Positions 5,818 to 48,573 of a DNA stretch of 64,000 nucleotides are shown piece by piece. Below the pieces are notes generated by a model. It was not told where the DNA came from. It did no database searches and was given only the letters and a program-made list of their open reading frames with translations. This DNA is from Pseudoduganella lutea. GTDB lineage: Bacteria; Pseudomonadota; Gammaproteobacteria; Burkholderiales; Burkholderiaceae_D. The number at the start of each line of letters is the position of its first letter. Position 1 is the first letter of the stretch. A program made the translations under genes and the position numbers. The stretch lies in the NCBI RefSeq assembly GCF_004209755.1, contig NZ_CP035913.1, positions 186,001-250,000 of the forward strand. Direction: 5' to 3'.

Positions 5818-6015
5818 GTGGACTCCGCTCGTAATCAAGTCAAGCAGCGGGCCGATCTTATGCGACGGCCGGGGCGGCCTATGTGCGGCCACGTACGAAA
5901 CGGACCACGCGGCGCGCGTTTGTGAATTCGCCACGCTAACGTGCAACGCTTGTTTTTTTTACATGGTAAAGTTGCCACGTCGTCCGGCATCCGGAGCCGC
6001 AAAGGCGACACCGTA

Positions 6016-6079
6016 TTCAGGCATGCAGTTCAGGCATTCCAGTTTCAGGTATTTCTTCAGGTGTTTCTTCAGGTATTTC
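6016..6079. repeat. Tandem 12-bp repeats upstream of glf
   Basis: Three contiguous 12-mers are TTCAGGTATTTC (6044-6055), TTCAGGTGTTTC (6056-6067) and TTCAGGTATTTC (6068-6079). They are preceded by two looser copies that begin TTCAGGCAT (6016 and 6029). The array ends 41 bases before the glf ATG and lies in an AT-rich leader. It could be a direct-repeat binding site or the product of slippage. Confidence 0.7.
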
Positions 6080-6084
6080 ATTAA

Positions 6085-7275
<1,191 letters not shown>

Positions 7276-15343: not shown

Positions 15344-16456
15344 CTATACCGCCTTCAACCTTGCACGAAAGTCGATCGCTTCCAGCTGCACATGGTCAGC
15401 CAGCGGCCCCCTCAGGACGAACAGTCTCGGTGCACTGGCGAATTCGAAAAGGCGATACAGGCAAAACGCATCCGGAAACTCTTCCGAGAACGTCAGTTCA
15501 TTGCGCGTGACGATGAACGGTGCCAGCGGGCCGGCATTCGTTGTCTTCACCTCGATGAACCGCGTGACCTCGGACCGTTCATAGGACAGGATGTCGTAGC
15601 CGGCGCCATCACCCAGCCTGTCGCTGATCCAGTCGATTCTTCCGGCGAGGTCGGGCCTGCCTTCTGCGGCCAAGCGTGCCTGCTCGTAGTGAACGGTCCA
15701 TGCTTCGCCGCCCCGTCCCAGTAAGCGGTTGCGCTCCTCGCGTGCCGCATAGTCGAGCTTGCGCGGCAAACGCGTGCGCTGTTGGGGTGCAGGTAGCTCC
15801 ACCACCTGGGGGCGCTCGACAAGGACGCCAATGTAACGCTCCTCGCCGGGCTGCACCTGCGCATCAAAATTGTCCATCACGGCCTGCAATGCTTCGCGGT
15901 GCCGATCGACATGGCGCAGCACGGTTTCGCGCAGCAGTGCCTGCAGGTTCCCGCGCGGTTTGTAGCCGCGGATATAAGGCAGCTGCATCTGGTCGAGAAC
16001 CGCCGAGATGTTTTGATGCTTCAGTTCGATTGACGATCTGCTGCGGGTGGTCAGTTGCTTACGCAACTGCTCATTATGCTCGGCCTTGCTGTAGGGTGCG
16101 CCGAGCGATTCGAGTTTCAGCATCTCGAAATAGTCAGCCACGGTCGCTTCCACTTCGGCCGAGCTCCAGTCGAGCCCGACGCGCACGACCTCGAAACCCA
16201 GGTCGACCAATAATTGCCCGGCATCATCTTCGCCGTTCGTTAGTACGTTGACCGGCTCACCGTTAAGACCGGCACTTCTTGCGACGGCCGCGGTGACCGC
16301 CAATACGTCGTACAGCTTGCCACTGACGGGTTCGCGCAGCATATATTCCCTTGAGCGAGGAACCGCATACTTCTCGTGGAAATAAGAGCGGCCGACATCG
16401 TCGAATTCCGCGAGCGCGCGACGGACGGCATCCGGTGAAATGGGCTTGTTCTTCAT
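15344..16456 (-). CDS. McrA-head/DUF3883 putative nuclease-like protein
   Basis: 370 residues, start at the ATG in MKNKPISPD; a longer frame to 16528 adds an unlikely tail. Residues 7-60 (VRRALAEFDDVGRSYFHEKY, then a GKLYDVLAVTAAVA block) resemble the N-terminal head domain of ScoMcrA-type modification-dependent enzymes. The middle holds RSRSSIELKHQNISAVLDQM followed by PYIRGYKPRGN. The C-terminal part (about 240-355) looks like DUF3883: GRGGEAWTVHYEQARL, DGAGYDILSYE and RFIEVKTTNAG. Glu251, Asp288 and the Glu302-Val-Lys304 tripeptide are spaced like a PD-(D/E)xK nuclease core. A role in recognising or cutting modified DNA is inference. It stands alone, at the edge of AT-richer decayed DNA. 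Confidence 0.65.
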   Translation of the reverse strand: MKNKPISPDAVRRALAEFDDVGRSYFHEKYAVPRSREYMLREPVSGKLYDVLAVTAAVARSAGLNGEPVNVLTNGEDDAGQLLVDLGFEVVRVGLDWSSAEVEATVADYFEMLKLESLGAPYSKAEHNEQLRKQLTTRSRSSIELKHQNISAVLDQMQLPYIRGYKPRGNLQALLRETVLRHVDRHREALQAVMDNFDAQVQPGEERYIGVLVERPQVVELPAPQQRTRLPRKLDYAAREERNRLLGRGGEAWTVHYEQARLAAEGRPDLAGRIDWISDRLGDGAGYDILSYERSEVTRFIEVKTTNAGPLAPFIVTRNELTFSEEFPDAFCLYRLFEFASAPRLFVLRGPLADHVQLEAIDFRARLKAV

Positions 16457-17043
16457 TGTACCTGCCGGTAGTTTTCGGCAGGTTACCACGGCTGAGGCCG
16501 CTCGCGCGCTCAAACCCGTGAGAACCATTTCGGGTGCCTGCCCTACAGCGCTCGGATGCGCGGTCTAAGATGATCTGCCTGAAGCGCCTTTCGTCTAAAG
16601 TTGTCGAGAAACACGGAGGTACTTCAACACTTAGACAGAAATCGACTACGCCTCGGTAACGCTAGCACTTAGTAGACGAGCCCCCATGACAGTCTAGACT
16701 ATTGAGGGATTCCTGCCGAGCAGCTCATTAGTTGGTGCGCTGGCATATATTTGTGAGGGCCAGGTCGGGCTGTCGGCTATTTGGATCATCCAGAATCGAT
16801 CGACCCGAATCAACTCAGGCAGATGCTGCGGGTCATCCCGATGAGTAGTAAGAATCGGCTGTTCAGTTGACCGAGCTGGGCGCTAAGTACATCGGCATTG
16901 AGCAAAACTAGCTGGCCACCTGCAAGCTGCACAAGATCATCATCTATGTTCGGATGGGGCGACTTACACAAGTTCGCCAGCGTGTCGCGCCTGCCGTCGC
17001 AGTCTGGCTTCTACGTCTGAGAGCGACCACTGCCCAGGGATCG
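16457..17043. other. Decayed, AT-richer region without an intact gene
   Basis: About 590 bp of lower GC than the flanks with stops in all frames. Short coding-like fragments appear on the plus strand near 16780-16930 (for example DPNQLRQMLRVIPMSSKNRL, then after a frame change QLTELGAKYIGIEQN). They look like the remains of a gene broken by frameshifts and stops. I cannot name the original family. Confidence 0.4.
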
Positions 17044-17523
17044 TCAATCGGCACCGGTTACGAGCAAATTGCACTTGCTCATCACGCCGGCGTTTCCGTG
17101 ATCTAGAGGGCCGACCATATCGATCGCCTTGACCGTATAAACCACCCTGGTATCTTTCTTGGTGAACGGTACCGCAATCACGCTGGTCGGAATTTGAGCC
17201 TCCCAATTGGCCGCGCGCCGCCGCGTGACCGGTTCGGATTGGCTAAAATTCAAGTGGCGCATAGTCGTATTCAAGCGGCCCTTTTCGTCGGTGCTCAGCG
17301 CAGTAACGAACACGAGCCGTTGCGGGCGGACTTCGGCGAGCGAGTGCAAAGCAAATCCCCGATTGTTCATCGTGATCCATTTACCGGCATGCAGGTACAG
17401 GCTAATGCGCAGACTATTGCTCTTCTCGTCAGGCAATTGCTGCTGTTTGCTCGTCGAAACAGATAACTTTAGTTCCTCCGCAGCAGATAAGATTGACTTC
17501 CTCGCAATCCATGCGGGCGACAT
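17044..17523 (-). CDS. Hypothetical protein (159 aa)
   Basis: I do not recognise this protein. It starts at an ATG preceded on the minus strand by AAGGGAG. It lacks a clear signal peptide or membrane segment and has mixed polar composition with a beta-rich centre (SNSLRISLYLHAGKWITMNN, then PQRLVFVTALSTDEKGR). The C-terminal part includes TSVIAVPFTKKDTRVVYTV. It lies 78 bp downstream of another unknown gene in the same direction and in the same AT-richer DNA, so the two probably form an operon acquired together. The antisense frame is longer but Ser/Arg/Cys-rich and unlikely to be coding. Confidence 0.55.
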   Translation of the reverse strand: MSPAWIARKSILSAAEELKLSVSTSKQQQLPDEKSNSLRISLYLHAGKWITMNNRGFALHSLAEVRPQRLVFVTALSTDEKGRLNTTMRHLNFSQSEPVTRRRAANWEAQIPTSVIAVPFTKKDTRVVYTVKAIDMVGPLDHGNAGVMSKCNLLVTGAD

Positions 17524-17601
17524 GCCGCCTACTCCCTTTCAATTGGGATTGATGTCGAATTGGCTGAAGAATATCTTCCTGAAACCCGTAGCCTCTTCAA
17601 A

Positions 17602-17889
17602 TTACAGGTTCTCGATTTGCTTGCGCTTAACGAACGTATCTTTACTATTTTTGAACACGCCAGTTTCCGCATCCGGAAACGCGATTTCGAGGCGCCTTGC
17701 GATTTCGCCCAGCCACGCACCACGATACGTCTGGTCGAGCCCGTTCCACTGTCCCCCGCAGCAAAAATCTTTGATATCCGTGCACAACGTATCGATATAG
17801 AATTGATTTGGCTTGCCGACTAATGTCTCCTTCGAGCATTTCAAGAGCCATCTGTATAGCATCTCAATGTTCTCTTGCTCCAGTGCCAT
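17602..17889 (-). CDS. Hypothetical protein (95 aa)
   Basis: The frame begins at the ATG of MALEQENIEMLYRWLLKCSK, with GGAGG six bases upstream, a good ribosome-binding site. The protein is acidic-to-neutral, soluble and mostly helical, with a Cys-containing centre (DTLCTDIKDFCCGGQW) and an end rich in Lys. I do not recognise it. It precedes the 159-residue gene in the same direction. A longer frame from 17961 adds 24 residues but has no comparable ribosome-binding site. The AT-richer composition suggests recent acquisition; a toxin/immunity or phage origin is possible but unsupported. Confidence 0.55.
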   Translation of the reverse strand: MALEQENIEMLYRWLLKCSKETLVGKPNQFYIDTLCTDIKDFCCGGQWNGLDQTYRGAWLGEIARRLEIAFPDAETGVFKNSKDTFVKRKQIENL

Positions 17890-18026
17890 ATCGCCTCCGT
17901 GTGGCTGGGCCCGGGTGAGGCCGAACAAGACCAGTATAGGCGTGGTTGACATGACCACCAAGTATTCTGCTCGACCAGATGTTCGCTAACAGCTATGTAT
18001 TCCGGAATGTACTCCGGCACGGCAAA

Positions 18027-29129: not shown

Positions 29130-30098
29130 TCAAAGCCAGCCTGCCTTCTTGAATCGCCGGTACAGGTAGCCGCACACGGCCGCTATCGTACACAGTGCGA
29201 ACGGATAGCCGTATTTCCACTTCAGCTCCGGCATGTATTCGAAGTTCATGCCCCAGATGCCTGCAAACGCGGTGAATACCGCGAAGATCGCCGCATACGA
29301 GGCCAGCTTCTTGCTGATGTCGTTTTCCTCGATCGCCACCATCGACAGCGTGACCTGGATCGCCGTATTGATCGTGTCGCGCACCGCGTCGAGCCGGCCG
29401 GCGATGCGGAACAGGTGGTCGTGCACGTCGCGGAAGTAATCCTGGGTTTCCGCCACCACGGCGGGCACCCGGCCGCCGTGCAGGCGCCCCATCGCGTCCA
29501 TCAGCGGCATCACCGCGTGGCGCAACACCAGCGCCTTGCGTTTCAGCGCATACAGGCGTTCCACGTTGGCGCGCTGTTCGTCCTTCTGGCTGAAGATGTG
29601 GTCCTCGATCGATTCGAGTTCCGATTCCAGCATGTCGACGATGGGGAAATAACGGTCGACCACGGCGTCCACCAGTGCATACAGCACGAAGCCTGCGCCC
29701 TTGCCCAGCTGGTGCGGTTCCCGTTCGGCGCGGGCGCGCACGCCGAGGAAATCTTGGGGCGAATCGCGCCGCACCGACAGCACATAGTTCGTCCCCGCGA
29801 ACACGGCCAGCTGGCCGACCTTCAGCTGGTCCCCTTGCATTTCCACGATGTGCACGACGACGAAGATGTTGTTGCCGTACTCCTCCATCTTGGGCCGCTG
29901 GTGGCCGCGGGCCGCATCCTCGATGGCCAGTTCGTGCAGGCTGAATTCGTCCTGCATGAGGGCGATTTCATCCACGTCCGGGTCGCGCAGCGCGACCCAC
30001 ACGAACGTCTCGGGTTCCTTGAGGTATTCACTGATGTCCACGACGGGGACATCGAGCAGTTTCTTGCCTTCCTGGTAGGCGACGCAGTTGATCAGCAT
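29130..30098 (-). CDS. corA: Magnesium/cobalt transporter CorA
   Basis: 322-residue pentameric inner-membrane channel for Mg2+ and Co2+. A large cytoplasmic N-terminal domain (EEYGNNIFVVVHIVEMQGDQ, then the long helix region SELESIEDHIFSQKDEQRAN) is followed by two C-terminal membrane helices. The signature GMNFEYMPEL between them is the selectivity-filter loop (GMN). The C-terminus ends in the basic RRFKKAGWL. Length and order match the family. It is divergent from the xylan-type receptor gene across a 460-bp, AT-richer region, and no Mg2+ riboswitch is apparent in its short leader. Confidence 0.95.
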   Translation of the reverse strand: MLINCVAYQEGKKLLDVPVVDISEYLKEPETFVWVALRDPDVDEIALMQDEFSLHELAIEDAARGHQRPKMEEYGNNIFVVVHIVEMQGDQLKVGQLAVFAGTNYVLSVRRDSPQDFLGVRARAEREPHQLGKGAGFVLYALVDAVVDRYFPIVDMLESELESIEDHIFSQKDEQRANVERLYALKRKALVLRHAVMPLMDAMGRLHGGRVPAVVAETQDYFRDVHDHLFRIAGRLDAVRDTINTAIQVTLSMVAIEENDISKKLASYAAIFAVFTAFAGIWGMNFEYMPELKWKYGYPFALCTIAAVCGYLYRRFKKAGWL

Positions 30099-30192
30099 GT
30101 TGACTTGCAGTGTAGGTGACGCAAATGCATGAGCTTACAGCATTGTCGATGTTGCAAAAATACGTCAGGCGATGCAAGCAAACCACAACGAC

Positions 30193-30208
30193 ATTGGAAG
30201 CGCTACCA
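30193..30208. promoter_or_regulatory. LacI/XylR-type operator, site 1
   Basis: TTGGAAGCGCTACCAA is a near-perfect 16-bp palindrome around AGCGCT. It resembles the LacI-family xyl box of Xanthomonas (TGGTAGCGCTAACA, from memory). It lies 95 bp before corA and about 350 bp before the receptor gene. Confidence 0.6.
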
Positions 30209-30416
30209 AATTTCATGTTTGCGCTATTCATTTATATCAGCCGCTTCACTATGATGGCCGCCTTTATCAGGCTTGCTGATACCATTTTGCATATCAGTGA
30301 TGGCATAAAAGTTATTGGATTACGGGTAGGCTAAGGGCTAGATTCGCATTCAAGGGCAGCAAATATTTCAGCTGGCGCACGAACGATCACGTCCGTGATT
30401 GATGATTGCGCATATC

Positions 30417-30430
30417 ATTTAGCGCTACCG
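30417..30430. promoter_or_regulatory. LacI/XylR-type operator, site 2
   Basis: ATTTAGCGCTACCG matches 11 of 14 positions of the reverse complement of the xyl box (TGTTAGCGCTACCA). It is 128 bp upstream of the receptor start codon, a normal operator position. Confidence 0.6.
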
Positions 30431-30557
30431 AGTGAGACCACGAAGCTTGTACGTTGCTGTTGTTTCTTCCAGTAATACATTGATCCAGTAAAAAAACACG
30501 CGGCACGGGTCGAACCCGGCCGACCAAGGCCTCGAGCCAACAATAACGGAGACATGG

Positions 30558-33500
30558 ATGAACAAAAAGTATGCAGGCGCGCCGCTGCGCCGGATGGGCC
30601 GCGGGCGCGATGCGCTCGTGATGAGCATGATGTCGGCACTCGTCGGCGGTGCCTGTGCGCAGGCGCAGACCGATGTGCCCCCGGGGCCCGTCCCTGCCGC
30701 GACAAGCACCGGCACCGCGGCCCAGGGATCCCCAGTGCTGCCCACGGTGACCGTCAGCGGCTTTCGCAGCTCGCTCGGCCTGTCGGCTGCGGAAAAGCGC
30801 GACAACATCGGCCTGTCCGATACCGTGTTCTCGGAGGACATGGGCAAGTTCCCCGACCCGAACATCGCCGATGCGCTGTCGCGCGTGCCGGGCGTGCAGG
30901 TGACCCGCGCCTCGATCGACGGCGAAGGCATGAACATCTCGATCCGCGGCATGGGCCCGGCCTTCACGCGCGTGCTGCTGAACGGCGCACCGATGGCGTC
31001 CGCGTCGGCCGGCAGCTGGGGCGGCAACATCAGCGCCAACCGCGAAGTGGACATGGACTTCCTGCCGTCCGAACTGTTCCGCAGCGCCAGCGTGTACAAG
31101 AGCCAGCAGGCCAGCGTGATCGAGGGCGGCATTGCCGGCACCGTCAACATGCGCAGCGTGCGCCCGTTCGACAAGCAAGGCCTGCGCTCGGCCTTCACGC
31201 TGTCCGGCAACTACCGCGACCGCGACGGCAAATGGGGCAACACGGGATCGGGCCTGATCAGCAACACATGGAACAGCAGCACCTTCGGCCGCTTCGGCAT
31301 CCTCGGCGGCGTGGCGTGGGGGAACACGAAGTACAAGACCGACGCCTTCCAGACCGTGGACATGCGCAACCTGCAACTGAAATCGTTCCAGGCCAACGCG
31401 GCGGACAAGCCGAACAGCACCGGCGGCGGCTCGCAGTCGACACCGGATACCGTGCCCTCCGGCCTGCCGCTGGCCTCCCTGCCCTCGTATGCGCAATCGG
31501 TGCTCGTGCCCGGCAAGCAGATCGATCGCAACATGCTGCTGGCGCTGAACCCCGGCGCGACGATCCAGCAGATCGACAACGGCCTGATGGGCCGCCTGGG
31601 CCGCCACATCATCTACCAGGGCGAACGCAAGCGCGCCGGTGAAGTGATCAGCGTGCAGTGGCAGCCGAACGACCAGTGGGACATCTACCTGGACACGCTG
31701 TTCGCGCAAAAGGAAAACAGCATGCTGTCCGAAGGCATGAACGTGGGCACGCGCGCCAACACGCCGATCCCCATCGGCCTCGAATTCGACCGCAGCGACT
31801 GCACCATCGGCTGCGTGATCACCAAGGGCACGTTCGCCAACACATTCTGGTCGCTGGAATTCCGGCCGATGCAGGAGAAGACCGTGTTCCGCAGCTTCAA
31901 CCCGGGCTTCGAATGGCGCCCGGCGGACAAGTGGACGGTCGACGGCCACGTGAACTACACGAAAAGCACCTTCTGGCGCGACATGCCGACCGTGCTGCTG
32001 GCCACCCGGTCCGCGAACTCGGTCATCGACTACGACAACACCACGCCGGGACAGACGCCCACCTACACGGGCAACCTGGACGTCAACGACCCGGCCAACT
32101 TCGGCTGGTACCAGGCCGGCCAGAACCTGTCCGGGCTGCGCATGGACCTGTACGAGCGCACCAACACCACCAAGGGTTCGCGCCTGAACGTGGCCTGGGG
32201 CGACAGCGACCTGTCGCTGAAAGTGGGCGCGGCGTGGGATGACATCGAACGGCGCTACCGCGGCTACAGCACGGCCGATGCGTGGATGAACGTCGCCTGC
32301 GGCAACAACGTCAACGCTCGGCTGTTCGGGCCGAACCCGCAGCTGCGCTCGCCCGGCTGCGACGGGCGCAGCACGCCGGGCCCGATCGCCGATGCCGCCA
32401 CCGCCTATCCCGGCTACGGCACCGGCTACACGGCCGGCGGCGCGCCGCTGGCGTACCTGGGCTCCGTGGTGCCGAATGCCGCGGTACCGAACTACGCGTA
32501 CTCCAGCAACCACGGCTTCATCACCGTCGACTGGCCGAAGTTCGCGAAGGATACGGATTACCAGTACTTCCGCGACAATATCTACAACGGCTTCAACAGC
32601 GGCAGCGGTGGCTACATCCGCGAAGTGGTGTCGTCCGCCTATGCGGAAATCAATGGCCGCGCCGAGGTCTTCGGCCGCACGCTGCGCTACAACGCCGGCC
32701 TGCGCCATGCGCGCACGAAGCAGACGATCGGCGACCTGTCGTCCGTGGCCGATCCGCGCAATGCCGGGCTGCAGGCCGGCGGGCTGTATCCGAACATCTC
32801 GTCATGGGCCTACGAGACGGTTCACTACAGCAATACCCTGCCGTCGATGACGCTGGCCTACAACATCACGCCCGACACGATCTTCCGGCTGTCCGGCTCG
32901 AAATCGCTGACGCGCGCCAACCCGGCCGACCTGCGCCAGACCCGCCTGTCCATCGGCGATCAGGGCGCCCGGCAGGGCAACCTCACGAACCCGAACCTCA
33001 AGCCCTTCGCCGCCAACAACTACGATGCCGGCATCGAGTACTACTTCAGCCGCGAAGCCTATGTGGCGGGCAGTGTGTTCGCCAAGGACATCACCAGCCG
33101 CCCCGGCCTGCGCGTGCTGCAGTACACGCTGGCCGAACTCGATGCGCTGTATGGCGAGATCGGCCTCACCGATGCGCAGCAGGTCGCCGTTGCCGCCAGC
33201 GGCGGCCGGGCCAACCACCTGGTCGAGATCACCGCGCCGTACAACATCGACACCAAGCTGAAGGTGCGCGGCGTGGAACTGACGTGGCAGCAGCCGCTCG
33301 ACATGCTGCCCGTGAAGGGCTTCGGCTTCACCGGCAACTTCACGTACACGAAGCAGACCGACGAAGCGGCCAACGCGCCACCCGTGGCCGGCGTGCCGCC
33401 CCGCACCAACAACTTCACGCTGTACTACGAGCGCAACGGCCTGTCGGCCCGCGTGTCGCGCCAGTACACTGCGTCGCACGTGGTCAATACCAGCACAGGC

Positions 33501-42348: not shown

Positions 42349-42947
42349 CTGTCGATGCTTGCCGGTCGAACCGGCAGCACAAAGCACGCCTGCCATTGCT
42401 GAATGGACAGTGAATCGTGTCGATCCGAGCTATCGTGGCCTTACCCATGGCTGGACGGCAAGCAGCCTCGCGCCAGCAACGGCTGCCGGGACATAAAGCC
42501 GTTTGCGGCGATCAGTCATTCCAGGCGATGAGGCGCCGTCGGTGTTTCTCGCAACGCCGCCCTGGCCACTGACTGCCGCCATTTCCTATCGATATAAAAG
42601 CGACTTTGGATCATTGCCCGGTGATCCGAATCGATCCCGGTCGACCTTCGTGAAACGCCATTACGGATATTTCTGGCGAAAACCAGGCGATCGATGCACG
42701 CACGCCACACGACGCCGATCTTAGCATTTTCGTAATATTATCATTATAATGTTCAGTCCGAAGCCGGCTGAGCACGATCATCCGAGCTGCGGAAACCTGA
42801 CTGTTGAACCTCTGCACCGGCATGTGGTGAGACTTATGCGCGCCGCACTCGAGTTGTTGAACAAAATGCGCAAGCACAACCGCCTGCTGCGCCTGAATTC
42901 CTCTGACGATGACGGACCCGCAATTGTGATAGCCACGAGAGCAAAAA
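42349..42947. other. Intergenic region at the left edge of the island
   Basis: About 600 bp with GC content falling toward the right. No frame looks coding on either strand. A good promoter (42721-42750) points into the island. I see no inverted repeat, integrase fragment or tRNA that would mark an insertion edge here. Confidence 0.5.
42721..42750 (+). promoter_or_regulatory. Sigma-70-like promoter of the island
   Basis: TTAGCA (42721-42726) and a perfect TATAAT (42745-42750) are 18 bp apart in an AT-rich stretch. They lie about 200 bp before the first 167-residue gene, and nothing else on the plus strand starts between them. Confidence 0.55.
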
Positions 42948-43451
42948 ATGGATATCGAAGAAGTAACCAAATTCGTGGGACTCCCTGCACAAAGCAAGGA
43001 TTTTGATCGATATCTATCTGCGCATGGACTTGCCCACCGCCCCGTCTTTAAAGGAACGCCAGTCGATCGAATCAGTGTCAAGGCCGCTGGTATTTCGCTG
43101 GTTTTCGACACCGCTATTCGCTACGAAAAGATGCATGGCCCACTGCGCGAAGGTGGATCAATGATATTTTCTACGGCACAGATTTACAGCGACGCAAATA
43201 ACAGCGGGTTTGAAGAGTATCGCGGCACTCTGCCTTATGGCCTGACATTCAAGCTTGCTTTGACAGATACAATCGGAATTCTTGGCACGCCAACGGTAAG
43301 TCACACCTTCGACGAAGAGCACAGTTACGTTTGGTACAATTTTCGCGGTAACACAATTGGCATCACGTTTCTATCAGACGAGCAAGGTATTTCATGGTTG
43401 GAGATCACGAGGGCAGCGAAGGAACCTCCGGTGCAAGTTGACTGGGATTGA
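42948..43451 (+). CDS. Island paralogue 1 (167 aa), immunity-like
   Basis: First of three 167-residue paralogues. Shared landmarks: the N-terminal KFVGLPAQSKDFDRYLSAHG, H-R-P-x-F at about 32-36, an AGISLVFDT strand, GSMIF, YRGTLPYGLTF, LGTPTVSHTF and the end GNTIGITF...GISWLEI. It has no signal peptide and is acidic. Small acidic single-domain proteins in tandem arrays are typical of immunity proteins to polymorphic toxins, and I recall LPYGLSF...LGxP proteins among them, but no toxin gene is in the window. The start codon has only a weak AG-rich ribosome-binding site. Composition is AT-richer than the flanks, which suggests transfer. Confidence 0.75.
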   Translation: MDIEEVTKFVGLPAQSKDFDRYLSAHGLAHRPVFKGTPVDRISVKAAGISLVFDTAIRYEKMHGPLREGGSMIFSTAQIYSDANNSGFEEYRGTLPYGLTFKLALTDTIGILGTPTVSHTFDEEHSYVWYNFRGNTIGITFLSDEQGISWLEITRAAKEPPVQVDWD

Positions 43452-43478
43452 TGCGAACCGAATGAAAAGGATACAACC

Positions 43479-44501
43479 ATGAGTAAAAATATTGTCCCCA
43501 GCGCCAACCTCCTCCTTTCGCACCTTGGTCTACCGCTGGAAACGCTTGACCAGTCTGTTTTCGCATACGCGGACTCACCGGATTTCGAGTTGCCGGATCA
43601 CTCACCGATCGGAGGAGCATTTTTCAAGGATCATGGATTATCCATTACCTTCTGCGCACCGGACTTCTATCATGTGAACGATGCTCTGACCAATCATCCT
43701 GCCATCATTACCAATGTGCAGTTCTATTCCGGCGAGAGTTATTACAATCACGCCAGGTATGAAGGTGAACTACCGTTCGGCTTGTCTTTTGATGACGACC
43801 GTGCAGCCGTCATCGACAAGCTCGGTCAGGGCGCCTGGCGGTTTCCGCTGGTCGCACCGTTCAAGCTCGAACGATTCGACCTGCCGGATCGCTGGATTCT
43901 TGTGAAGTATGCCGACGATGGCTCCGGTATCAGCATGATCCAGATCGGGCTGAAGCCTAAGAAGTCAGATGCAACCGTCTTGCCGAAGATCCTGCAACCC
44001 GACATCCATGCGTTGCAATCGATGCTGACAAGAAGTTGGGACATCGTGAGCGAAGATGACCGATTCGAGGGCATCGATTTGTCAGGCTTCTGCGAGCCTG
44101 CCGCTGAAGAAGATTGCCCAGATGAGATCGACGCGTTACCGACGCACGGGGTCGAACTGTACTTCCGTCAGTCCAAGGAAACCATCGATGCGAAATCGGT
44201 GCTGTCAGGCGCGCGGTACATTCGCAAAGGCCTGAACTGGTCTTCCGGTTTTGATGGGGATCTTCCGATGGGGATAGGCTTCGACGACACCCCGGAACAA
44301 TTCCTGGCAAAGGTAGGTTGCTATCCGGTGACCGGAAAAGCGAATGTTCTGACTGGGTACTATGTTTGGCGGCTTCCCGAACACCTTCTTCACATCGGCT
44401 ACAGCGTCATGGAGCAACGTATCAACCGCATTTATATAGCTGCCCACTCCTACTACTCTCCGTCATTATTGGAGTCGCCGCTCCTCGAGTTGCCGACGTG
44501 A
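43479..44501 (+). CDS. Island protein with two family-like units (340 aa)
   Basis: 340 residues, start after AAAGGAT. Two units can be read. The first (about 10-170) has LLSHLGLPLETLDQS, HGLSITF, YEGELPFGLSFDDDRAAV and a GSGISMIQIGL end. The second (about 175-335) has THGVELYF, a FDGDLPMGIGFDDTPEQFLA block and RINRIYIAAHSYY. Each repeats the landmarks of the 167-residue paralogues (G-x-LP-x-G-x-x-F, then about 10 residues to LG/VG, then an aromatic strand). I read it as an internal duplication of the same fold. It sits 27 bp after paralogue 1 and is probably co-transcribed. Function is unknown; immunity is inferred from the array. Confidence 0.7.
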   Translation: MSKNIVPSANLLLSHLGLPLETLDQSVFAYADSPDFELPDHSPIGGAFFKDHGLSITFCAPDFYHVNDALTNHPAIITNVQFYSGESYYNHARYEGELPFGLSFDDDRAAVIDKLGQGAWRFPLVAPFKLERFDLPDRWILVKYADDGSGISMIQIGLKPKKSDATVLPKILQPDIHALQSMLTRSWDIVSEDDRFEGIDLSGFCEPAAEEDCPDEIDALPTHGVELYFRQSKETIDAKSVLSGARYIRKGLNWSSGFDGDLPMGIGFDDTPEQFLAKVGCYPVTGKANVLTGYYVWRLPEHLLHIGYSVMEQRINRIYIAAHSYYSPSLLESPLLELPT

Positions 44502-44615
44502 TCGAAATACAGAAAAGCGGAAATTCAGAGACACTTGCTCATTAGCTGCCGTTCCAAACCACTCCTCCGAAGCAATGAGAATTCATAGATCCGGTGAAGA
44601 TGATAAAAAGTATCC

Positions 44616-45119
44616 ATGAATATTGAAGAAGTTATCAGGTTTCTTGGGCTGCCGGCCCAAAGCAGAGAATTCGACGAATATCTTACTGCGCATGGCATCT
44701 CACATAGACCAGAATTCAAAGAAACGCCGGTTGACGACATCAACATTGAAGCGGCAGGTCTTTCGCTGGTTTTCGACAGTGCCAATATTTACGAGAGTAT
44801 GTATGGCACTCTGCAAGAACAAGGATCAATGATCTTTTCATCATTACAGGTTTATAGCGCCGCCAACGATAGTGGATTTCAACAATACGGTGGGCCGCTG
44901 CCTTATGGTCTTTCGTTTGAATCCACCCCCATGGAAGCAATGACTATCTTCGGCACACCGACAGTGAAATATACTTTCAGCGAAGAGCCTTCGTATGTTT
45001 GGCATGATTACAATGGCAATACCATTGGAGTTACCTTCTTAGGGGAAGAGAAAGGTATTTCATGGCTGGAATTGTCGAGAGCCGAGAAAGAACCACCAGA
45101 ACAGATGGATTTCGATTAA
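44616..45119 (+). CDS. Island paralogue 2 (167 aa), immunity-like
   Basis: Same length and motif order as paralogue 1: FLGLPAQSREFDEYLTAHGI, HRPEFKETPVDDI, AGLSLVFDS, GSMIFSSLQVYSAANDSGF, GGPLPYGLSF, FGTPTVKYTF, GNTIGVTFLGEEKGISWLEL and the tail EKEPPEQMDFD. By eye it is more than half identical to both sister genes over the full length. It lies 114 bp after the 340-residue gene. No signal peptide. The ribosome-binding site is weak (AAAAAG). Divergence among sisters is spread along the chain, with insertions absent, which indicates duplication followed by substitution. Confidence 0.75.
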   Translation: MNIEEVIRFLGLPAQSREFDEYLTAHGISHRPEFKETPVDDINIEAAGLSLVFDSANIYESMYGTLQEQGSMIFSSLQVYSAANDSGFQQYGGPLPYGLSFESTPMEAMTIFGTPTVKYTFSEEPSYVWHDYNGNTIGVTFLGEEKGISWLELSRAEKEPPEQMDFD

Positions 45120-45276
45120 TTTGCGTTGCGCATTCAATTACGCAAGAATGAGACAAAGCAGACCTTGAATGACCGACATGACCGGTTTAAGCTCGAAGAG
45201 TGCAACTGAAACTGGAACTGGATCGTCGGCGCTGTCAGTCAGACATCCGCGTCAAGTCAGTCCAGAAAGGTAGACC

Positions 45277-45780
45277 ATGACGATCGATAAAATAACAAAA
45301 TTCCTGGGCCTGCCCGCCCAGAATATCGAATTTGACAAATATCTCGCCACGCACGGCATTTCACATCGCCCCGTCTTCCGGGAAACGCCTGTCGATCGAA
45401 TCAGCCTCGAGAGCTCGGGCCTCTCGCTGGTTTTCGACACCGCCGGGCTGTATGAGGAAATGTATGGACCGCTTTCGGAGAAGGGGTCGATGATATTTTC
45501 AGAACTGCAGATCTATGGAGCAGTGAACGACAGTGGATTCGAACAATATCCTGGTCCGCTCCCGTATGGCCTGTCATTCAAATCCACATCCGCGGAGGCG
45601 ATCAACATTTTTGGCAGCCCAACGGTAAGTCATACCTATGGCGAACAGCGCAGTCTCGTCTGGTACGATTACGATGGCAATACCATCGGCATTACATTCT
45701 TGCAGGAAGATCAGGGCATTTCCTGGCTGGGTTTATCGAAGGCCGCGAAAAAGCCACCAGAGCAGGACGACTGGGACTAA
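45277..45780 (+). CDS. Island paralogue 3 (167 aa), immunity-like
   Basis: Third 167-residue copy: TIDKITKFLGLPAQNIEFDK, HRPVFRETPVDRI, SGLSLVFDTAGLYEEMYGPL, GSMIFSELQIYGAVNDSGF, PGPLPYGLSF, FGSPTVSHTYGEQ, GNTIGITF and GISWLGL, ending EQDDWD. It is closer to paralogue 1 in some blocks (VDRIS, PTVSHT) and to paralogue 2 in others (NDSGF, PLPYGLSF), a mosaic that hints at recombination among copies. A GAAAGG precedes the ATG by six bases. It is 157 bp from paralogue 2, and that spacer has no gene. Confidence 0.75.
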   Translation: MTIDKITKFLGLPAQNIEFDKYLATHGISHRPVFRETPVDRISLESSGLSLVFDTAGLYEEMYGPLSEKGSMIFSELQIYGAVNDSGFEQYPGPLPYGLSFKSTSAEAINIFGSPTVSHTYGEQRSLVWYDYDGNTIGITFLQEDQGISWLGLSKAAKKPPEQDDWD

Positions 45781-45897: not shown

Positions 45898-45991
45898 CAC
45901 GCCCAATCCCGAACTCCCCACCAGCGCCACCAGCGTGGCCCGCCTGCTGCTGCAAGCTCTACCCCGCGGCGGCGGCTTCTCGACCAGCGCG
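45898..45991 (-). pseudogene. Decayed copy of a chemoreceptor gene 3' end
   Basis: This stretch matches 46596-46691, the 3' end of the chemoreceptor gene, at roughly 85% over about 95 bp with single-base indels. On the minus strand it still reads as ALVE, a run of Ala/Pro codons, then ATLVALVG. Short indels break the frame. It stands directly left of the unknown gene at 46013, so the gene is bracketed by two copies of the same end in direct orientation. Confidence 0.75.
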
Positions 45992-46012: not shown

Positions 46013-46447
46013 ATGGCAAACAGTATTTTTGTACCAGCATTGCGAATGCCGACGGATATCCTTGAATTGAGTTCCGTTATAAATTTTGCTTTTGCAGAAT
46101 TGGGTTTTTTGACACCGTCAGTCCGGATCGATAAACAGGGTCGAGAATCTCTATCGTTAACTGATGGCTTCATCATGATCGAAGGACAACACGACAAAGA
46201 TCAATGTTGGGTATCGATTGGCAGGTGCGACCCGAAATTTACCGGCGATGCCGAGTGCTGCATTCTTTGCGATGTAAAAACTCGCGGCAGCTGGCTTTTC
46301 GCCGCCGTGGTCGCATATGCTTTTTGCAAGGCATGGGGACGAACTGTTTTTAACGATGCAGGCGAGCTGGATGGACAAGAGACCTACTCTGCCGAATCAT
46401 TAAAAGAGGTAATCCTCAAAGCCAACCCCACCCGCCGAGACGCTTGA
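46013..46447 (+). CDS. Hypothetical island protein (144 aa)
   Basis: The frame starts at the ATG of MANSIFVPALRMPTDILELS; the longer frame from 45875 would translate the chemoreceptor scar and is rejected. The protein has no signal peptide. It contains an alpha-beta layout with FAFAELGFLTPSVRID, the strand-rich IMIEGQHDKDQCWVSIGR, two cysteines in AECCILCDVK, and a helix FAAVVAYAFCKAWGR. It does not share the LPYGL motifs of the paralogues but has the size of a single-domain immunity protein. I do not recognise it. It lies between a decayed and an intact chemoreceptor 3' end. Confidence 0.6.
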   Translation: MANSIFVPALRMPTDILELSSVINFAFAELGFLTPSVRIDKQGRESLSLTDGFIMIEGQHDKDQCWVSIGRCDPKFTGDAECCILCDVKTRGSWLFAAVVAYAFCKAWGRTVFNDAGELDGQETYSAESLKEVILKANPTRRDA

Positions 46448-46594: not shown

Positions 46595-48526
46595 TTACGC
46601 CCCGATCCTGAACTCTCCCACCAGCGCCACCAGCGTGGCCGCCTGCTGCTGCAGGCTCTCCGCCGCGGCAGCCGCTTCCTCGACCAGCGCGGCATTCTGC
46701 TGCGTCACGCCATCCATCTGGCCGACGGCCTGCGTGACCTGCCCAATGCCGGCGCTTTGCTCGATGCTGGCCGCGGCGATGCCGGCGATGATGTCGGCCA
46801 CGCTGCGCACGCTCGTCACCACTTCATCCATCGTGGCGCCGGCGCCCTGCACCAATGCGCTGCCGCGTTCGACCTGGGCGACGGAATCGCCGATCAGCGC
46901 CTTGATTTCCTTGGCCGCGCTGGCCGAACGTTGCGCGAGGTTGCGCACTTCGCTCGCCACCACGGCAAAGCCGCGGCCCTGTTCGCCAGCGCGCGCCGCT
47001 TCGACCGCCGCGTTCAGCGCCAGGATATTGGTCTGGAACGCGATGCCGTCGATGACGGCGATGATGTCGACCACCTTCGTCGACGATGCGTTGATGGCGG
47101 CCATCGTCTCGACCACTTCGGCCACCACGGCGCCACCCCGTGTCGCCACGCCGGAAGCATTGGCGGCCAGCTGGCGCGCCTGCGCGGCGTTGTCAGAATT
47201 CTGCTTCACGGTGCTGGTCAGTTCTTCCATCGATGCCGCCGTTTCCTCCAGCGCGCTGGCCTGCTGCTCGGTGCGCGCCGACAGGTCGGCGTTGCCCTGG
47301 CTGATTTCACTGCTGGCAACGGCCACGCTGGCGGAACTGTCGCGCACGCGCGCCAGCACCGCCTCGATCTTCGCGACGAAGGTATTGAAGCCATTGCCGA
47401 TCACGGCCAGTTCATCGTTGCCCTTTACCGCCAGGCGCTTCGTCAGGTCGGCATTGCCGCCGGCCAGTTGCGTCATCGTGCGGGCGAGTTCGCGCAGCGG
47501 CCGGGTCAGGCGGCCCAGCACGAAGACCATCACGGCGGCCGCGATGGCGGCGCACAGCACCGAGGCCATCGCCGTGTACACCATCAGTTCGTGCGCCGGC
47601 GCGGTGGCCACGCTTTTCGGGAATGCCAGGCGCACGGCCCACGGGGCCACGCCGCCGGAAATATGCAGCGGCTGCACCAGGTTGACGATGCCGTCGGCTT
47701 CGTATTCGAACGGCTGGCCGGCACGCACGGCCGCCAGGGCGGCCTGCGGCATGTCGTCGGCCTTCTTGCCGTTGCGGGCCGCGTCCGGGTGGCTGGCGTA
47801 CAGGCCTTCGTTCGACACGAGCGCCAGCCTGCCCTCTTCCACCGTCTTCAGGCCGGCAAGGATATCGCCCAGCTTCGTCAGCAGGAAGTCGGCGCTGACC
47901 ACGCCCCTGACCTGACCCGCGACAACGACGGGCGCCATCAGGGAGATCATCAGCACGTCCTTGCCGGCGACGGGATACGTGGTCGGTTCGGTGAGATAGC
48001 GCTTGCCGGTTTTCTTCGGCACGTCGTACCAGTCGTTGGCACCGGGCTTGTCGCTGAACGTGATCGGTTCGACGTGGACGCCGCCGTCGGCCTTGCGCGT
48101 GAAGTACGGCATGTAGCGGCCGGTCGCGTCGAAGCGGGGTTTCTGGCCCGCGAATTCGGCGTCGCGGCCATCGAGCGCGTTCGGCTCCATCGTCACGGAA
48201 ACGCCCAGCAGGTCATCGGAACCGCGCAGCAAGGCCTGCGACGCCGCATCGACCTGGTCGCGCGCCAGACCCTTGTCCGCCGCCAGCGCGGCGGCCACGG
48301 TGTTGGCCAGCGTGGTCGTCGAGGAATAATTCGCTTCGATGCGGCCCGACAGCGTGGCGGCGGCCGCCTCGGCGGAAACGCGCGCGAGGCGCATGGCCGC
48401 GTCCACGGCGCTGTCGCGGTTGTGCGCGCCGGTGATGATGGCCACCAGCGCCAGGCTCACGATCACAAGCGTGGTCGCGGCGAGGCTGATGCGGGCGTTC
48501 AGGGAAAGGTTGCGAAGCAAAGTCAT
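46595..48526 (-). CDS. Methyl-accepting chemotaxis protein, dCache type
   Basis: 643 residues; GGAGAG lies before the ATG at 48526. TM1 (about 10-32), a double-Cache periplasmic sensor (about 40-290, with [20 protein letters not shown] and [19 protein letters not shown]), TM2 (about 305-328), HAMP and a signalling domain. The hairpin tip is intact ([20 protein letters not shown]). The C-terminus [20 protein letters not shown] then VALVGEF is the piece duplicated at 45898-45991. dCache receptors usually sense small metabolites such as amino or organic acids. The gene points toward the island from the right, so two chemoreceptors frame it. Confidence 0.93.
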
Positions 48527-48573
48527 GCTGCTCTCCATCGATTGCTGAATCAGAAGGTGTGTCGGAAGGTGCG

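Follow-up and report, generated by a model that had tools for sequence, protein, structure and literature searches.

How does a bacterium come to hold several copies of an immunity gene with no toxin beside them, and what could such copies be for? The question is raised by positions 42948-45780 of a 64,000-nt stretch (the window) of the Pseudoduganella lutea genome (7.5 Mb, one contig), where a single run on the + strand consists of three open reading frames (ORFs) of 167 aa and one of 340 aa. The 167-aa proteins resemble TsiN, which in Acidovorax citrulli serves as the immunity partner of TseN, a DNase effector delivered by its type VI secretion system (T6SS; PMC12574953). Very probably, the run is an orphan immunity array that arose by an in-place deletion within a T6SS vgrG-effector operon. 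It comprises the following genes.

42948..43451, + strand: imm1, TsiN-type immunity protein, 167 aa (ORF, genome matches with imm3 as query, nine-sequence alignment)
43479..44501, + strand: 340-aa protein with two predicted TsiN-like domains (profile comparison, AlphaFold model, structure search)
44616..45119, + strand: imm2, TsiN-type immunity protein, 167 aa (match to TsiN, chain 9j9w_A, E 1.3e-7)
45277..45780, + strand: imm3, TsiN-type immunity protein, 167 aa (match to TsiN, E 4.9e-6; model with TsiN at Foldseek rank 1)

An initial annotation, made from the sequence alone, had described three 167-residue paralogues of small acidic type in a same-strand run of lower GC content than its surroundings. 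The ORF list places them exactly there, with pairwise identities of 62-67%; GC content is 0.500 in the array and 0.652 in the whole window, and all four proteins are acidic (isoelectric points 4.2-5.2). With imm3 as the query, four matches were found in the P. lutea genome at E 0.01, every one inside the array.

Membership of the 167-aa proteins in the TsiN family is firm, in sequence and in fold. In a search of solved structures, imm2 (phmmer E 1.3e-7, residues 1-104) and imm3 (E 4.9e-6, residues 6-107) each matched one chain only, the TsiN chain of PDB 9j9w; these two served as queries, and imm1 is assigned via its 62% identity to both. The AlphaFold model of imm3 (predicted local distance difference test, pLDDT, 90.9; predicted template modelling score, pTM, 0.88) has TsiN as its Foldseek rank 1 (E 1.4e-8, TM 0.75/0.79, 158 columns). 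The HRPxF...PVD motif falls between helix 2 and strand 1 of this model (residues 26-38), and R31, P32, P38 and V39 are invariant across a nine-sequence alignment of the 167-aa family. In TsiN, the helix 2-strand 1 loop sits above the catalytic pocket of TseN (PMC12574953).

Pfam and NCBIfam scans of five window proteins named no family and gave only weak matches below cut-off. Among the relatives' proteins none reached a cut-off, the best being a sub-cut-off match of P0006 to DUF7738 (E 0.0014). Database entries give DUF6392 (PF19929) for P0006, P0015, P0043, P0047, P0048, P0051 and P0054; a rescan of P0006 with the local Pfam did not reproduce this assignment, and the window proteins are also without a local Pfam match. 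PF19929 found nothing in the P. lutea genome, where the controls were equally silent and the result is hence uninformative, and a literature search under DUF6392 found no papers. No confident match to a metabolic or structural family emerged, and the proposal of immunity-like paralogues for a T6SS-type toxin is upheld by the likeness to TsiN, by a toxin operon in four relatives and by fruitless searches for the toxin in P. lutea.

We identified this operon among 392 genomes of the family, 9 of which (P. lutea included) match the 167-aa profile at E 0.001. The 340-aa profile matches 12, at full length in five: P. lutea, P. buxea (G386, NZ_WNKZ01000025.1), G203, G175 and G136. In the four relatives a vgrG-like gene comes first, then DUF2169-like, PAAR-like and toxin genes; a 167-type gene, or two of them, and the 340-type gene follow in that order. 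By Pfam, the first three genes of the P. buxea locus, L019, encode VgrG domains, DUF2169 and Tox-PAAR-like; their counterparts at the other loci take their names from resemblance to these. None of the four toxins has a Pfam family above cut-off. Those of L019 (E 3.8e-11) and L025 (E 3.6e-9) match TseN, and the L018 and L021 toxins can be aligned with these two. The A. citrulli operon is described as VgrG5, a DUF2169 chaperone, a PAAR-like protein, TseN and TsiN (PMC12574953). The neighbourhoods of relatives were where the initial annotation had advised looking for the toxin, and four family genomes do pair a TseN-type toxin with 167-type genes. Stops listed in both 167-type matches of G203 lie beyond the gene ends, and the frames themselves are open (159 and 166 aa).

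A similar arrangement occurs on a plasmid of Paracoccus alcaliphilus, in the order DUF2169, ketosynthase-like and DUF4150/toxin, followed by 157-aa and 340-aa genes that match the 167 and 340 profiles at 93.7% and 99.5%. Other searches gave little: imm3 had no plasmid match, a contig search returned one locus (that of P. buxea), and the 340 profile found only P. lutea itself in 369 genomes of the class. Either TseN-type modules are rare or the genome draws missed them. In Vibrio maritimus, the protein after a pyocin-type toxin weakly matches the immunity profile (52.5%). TseN-type domains also occur in 13 plasmid records, 11 annotated as S-type pyocin, one as a DUF4150 protein and one without annotation, and in very large open frames of two genomes (G067:C18:889-1308; G385:C33:73465-73770 and 115357-115653; frames of 1311, 5498 and 5538 aa). 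By eye, the G067 frame resembles Rhs proteins; behind it, and behind the second G385 site, lies a 167-type match. A single 167-type gene by a contig end (L020, G175:C35, 623-1129), apart from the G175 toxin operon on C11, is perhaps a second orphan, the contig start being too near to tell. A 41-residue piece of a 340-type C-terminus near transposase-like ORFs, so named by eye (L081, G159:C24, 6701-6817), may be what is left of such a module after further decay.

Comparison with the intact operons shows what lies ahead of the first immunity gene in P. lutea.

42721..42750, + strand: putative retained vgrG promoter, TTAGCA-18-TATAAT (scan and conserved block)
42836..42940, + strand: vgrG stub, about 35 first codons (DNA match to the P. 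buxea vgrG start)
42922..42947, + strand: deletion junction between the vgrG stub and the first immunity gene (similarity jump against P. buxea)

Positions 42848-42921 (74 nt) align with the beginning of the P. buxea vgrG at 82% identity (E 2.4e-16), and beyond 42921 the similarity shifts to the start of the P. buxea immunity gene. The start of vgrG is separated from that of the immunity gene by 112 nt in P. lutea, by 4989 nt in P. buxea and, with ORF starts assigned mechanically, by 4923-5112 nt across the four relatives, so about 4.9 kb are missing relative to the intact operons. At the level of DNA, the eight vgrG loci of P. lutea itself lack any match to the stub; the L018 VgrG start resembles it as a protein, by eye. 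One promoter had been predicted ahead of the run. There is one promoter-like site, and a 35-nt block containing its TATAAT is 80% identical to a block similarly far upstream of the P. buxea vgrG (0 of 1000 shuffles as good). The plain scan, with two such sites in the stretch against a shuffle mean of 3.4, is by itself no evidence. A 22-nt match to the P. buxea vgrG body at 42555-42576 was set aside as probable chance. Because of the stub match, the jump at the junction and the conserved promoter block, the DNA argues strongly that the array is the remnant of a P. buxea-like vgrG-toxin operon, whose vgrG promoter would now read into the array.

The copies themselves form one clade with P0002, a protein from another source (support 99/98), in which imm2 and P0002, 85.6% identical, are paired. 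Comparisons between the copies give a dN of 0.24-0.26, with saturation at synonymous sites. The spacers of the array hold no detectable toxin remnant (in the best case, 5 of 100 shuffles were as good). Since the copies are a single clade with saturated sites and spacers without detectable toxin remnants, duplication and divergence are preferred over stepwise displacement, and the data speak for these two processes, with in-place deletion, being enough to explain the copies. Block-wise mosaic similarity due to recombination had been proposed. The shared-site pattern has fewer runs (121, against 136.0 +/- 6.6 in shuffles, 1.5% of them as low), which hints weakly at recombination between copies; duplication with divergence is enough without it.

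Judging from profiles and a predicted structure, the 340-aa protein is a tandem of two TsiN-like domains. In profile comparison (hhalign), the first half of its family profile aligns with the 167-aa family at 99.2% (E 2e-19), and the second half alone does so at 93.7% (E 1.8e-7). In the AlphaFold model (pLDDT 90.9, pTM 0.89) the order of helices and strands is repeated twice; a structure search with it gave TsiN as the first hit, and VIA-align returned many middling rows below TsiN. The two units that the initial annotation saw in this protein are thus confirmed as two copies of the 167-aa fold, and no unrelated structure appeared. Of the landmarks thought to be shared by its two units, LPxGxxF is present in both halves, whereas HRPxF and GSMIF do not recur. 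A search with the 340-aa protein found 33 proteins: itself, 29 at 50-74% identity and three at 24-29%. P0015 (541 aa) is a natural three-domain fusion of a 167-type domain and a 340-type protein.

These observations suggest the following history. The ancestor would have had a promoter, vgrG, DUF2169 chaperone, PAAR-like gene, TseN-type DNase toxin, TsiN-type immunity gene and the gene for the 340-aa two-domain protein. Loss of about 4.9 kb, from around codon 35 of vgrG to the toxin end, would have let the vgrG promoter read directly into the immunity genes, which are presumably expressed from it, and the 167-aa gene would have been duplicated to three copies that have since diverged. Each copy may act as TsiN does and bind arriving TseN-type toxins at their DNase domain, its helix 2-strand 1 loop (the HRPxF...PVD segment) covering the catalytic pocket; this plugging is inferred from TsiN, and the 340-aa protein may help in protection. 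The array would likely protect its host from neighbours that fire TseN-type toxins. More tentatively, a weapon may have been converted into a shield in one step: a single internal deletion would have removed carrier, chaperone, tip and DNase and left the vgrG promoter to drive immunity while T6SS genes are on, and the amplified, diverged copies and the two-domain protein could cover several TseN-type DNases, whose warhead also occurs in S-type-pyocin-annotated and very large proteins.

That the cognate toxin is gone is strongly supported. The toxin profile had no match at E 0.01 in the whole one-contig P. lutea genome, and a single toxin query reached E 0.69 at best; the same profile was positive in 6 of 12 genomes, including those with divergent toxins. 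It is very unlikely that the array still answers to an unrecognised toxin elsewhere in P. lutea. The genome retains T6SS parts (two VipA genes and eight VgrG-type genes, the latter with putative cargo); however, 167-type and TseN-type genes adjoin in relatives, and the profile detects divergent members in G067 and G385 and none here. Unlikely, though more credible, is that the array is an inert relic, in which immunity genes of a decayed auxiliary T6SS cluster linger without present benefit. Carrier and toxin are lost, and in Ralstonia the decay of auxiliary clusters, with immunity genes left orphaned, is reported to be frequent (251 of 1,066 clusters are decayed; PMC11481896). In P. lutea, however, four open frames, the promoter block and ribosome-site-like spacing are retained, copy number rose, and differences between copies are mostly synonymous, though possibly old. 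Several points weigh against our interpretation of a deletion-derived, protective array. The imm2-TsiN match is confined to residues 1-104, the stub has a DNA match in only one of the four relatives (P. buxea), and none of 399 genomes taken from across the order matched the toxin profile, such that TseN-type attackers may be rare among the sampled kin. Divergence of the copies may also predate the deletion, so the substitution pattern is no proof of use since.

Whether the deletion occurred in this host is a separate matter, and arrival by horizontal transfer of an array already orphaned elsewhere is nearly as likely as not. The array is lower in GC and is flanked by two convergent chemoreceptor-like genes (by eye). 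The congeners G787, G779 and G374 keep the second of these and its neighbour at 74-84% DNA identity, and their fetched regions contain no matches to array genes. Beside the array, about 90 nt at 45903-45991 repeat, at 89% identity, the 3' end (46602-46691) of the chemoreceptor-like gene at 46595-48538 (- strand). Because the two copies match one and the same gene end in the congeners, the sequences suggest repeated insertion at the 3' end of this gene. The stub and promoter, by comparison, place the deletion in this operon and not in any particular host, and the mechanism would be the same under import. There is also a substantial, if lesser, chance that the 340-aa protein is an accessory of vgrG-linked TseN modules, for instance a holder of the toxin-immunity complex, rather than an immunity protein. 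A 340-type gene occurs in all four vgrG-linked modules seen in the family, and a homologue follows the DUF2169 - DUF4150/toxin module of Paracoccus alcaliphilus; no full-length 340-type gene was reported in G067 and G385, whose TseN-type domains sit in other large proteins. The RP loop motif is absent from both halves, and Aave_2132, the gene after tsiN in A. citrulli, for which homology to the 340-aa protein is not established, failed to neutralise TseN (PMC12574953). On the other side, the fold is that of TsiN, twice, the gene was retained despite the loss of carrier and toxin, and two-domain (SUKH) immunity proteins, of which one domain suffices, are described in Bacteroidales (PMC12247911).

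Immunity arrays orphaned from T6SS toxins are already known, as are decayed clusters, and what this array adds is an unusually clear origin. The TseN/TsiN system of A. citrulli (PMC12574953, PDB 9j9w) shares the immunity fold and sequence and has the operon order of the array's relatives. Compared with it, the array is without the vgrG body, chaperone, PAAR-like gene and toxin, has three immunity copies, and includes a two-domain companion whose A. citrulli counterpart is not established there. In the orphan arrays described for Vibrio cholerae, several effector-less immunity genes likewise stand at a vgrG-linked locus, but these are unrelated immunities that accumulate as new modules displace effectors, whereas the copies here are one clade (PMC5361080). 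As in P. lutea, decayed clusters of Ralstonia have lost vgrG or toxin and kept orphan immunity genes or arrays, with deletions among the causes; a vgrG promoter and start fused to immunity genes is not among the features described for those clusters in the parts of PMC11481896 consulted. The AID-1/rAID systems of Bacteroidales similarly have co-oriented, short, low-GC orphan immunity genes, but with a tyrosine recombinase and other immunity families such as SUKH (PMC12247911); no recombinase was noticed by eye among the long ORFs beside the array, where no profile search was made. Strings of non-identical immunity paralogues are also known from esaG-type genes, which belong to another secretion system (type VII) and for which recombination between paralogues is reported, compared with the weak hint found here (PMC9484751). 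Origins of orphan immunity genes have mostly been inferred from strain comparisons; in this case promoter, stub, junction and intact counterparts are all readable, which opens both the origin and its consequence, immunity driven by a weapon's promoter, to direct testing. An array without its toxin and a two-domain companion that is conserved are thereby added to the TseN/TsiN family, first described in print in 2025.

Between the two 90-nt repeats, 46013-46447 is an acidic 144-aa ORF (GC 0.48) without a Pfam, NCBIfam or convincing PDB match, and is possibly another small immunity-like gene. Further stretches of lower GC in the window are 6001-7000, 16001-18000 and 30001-31000 (0.52-0.58).
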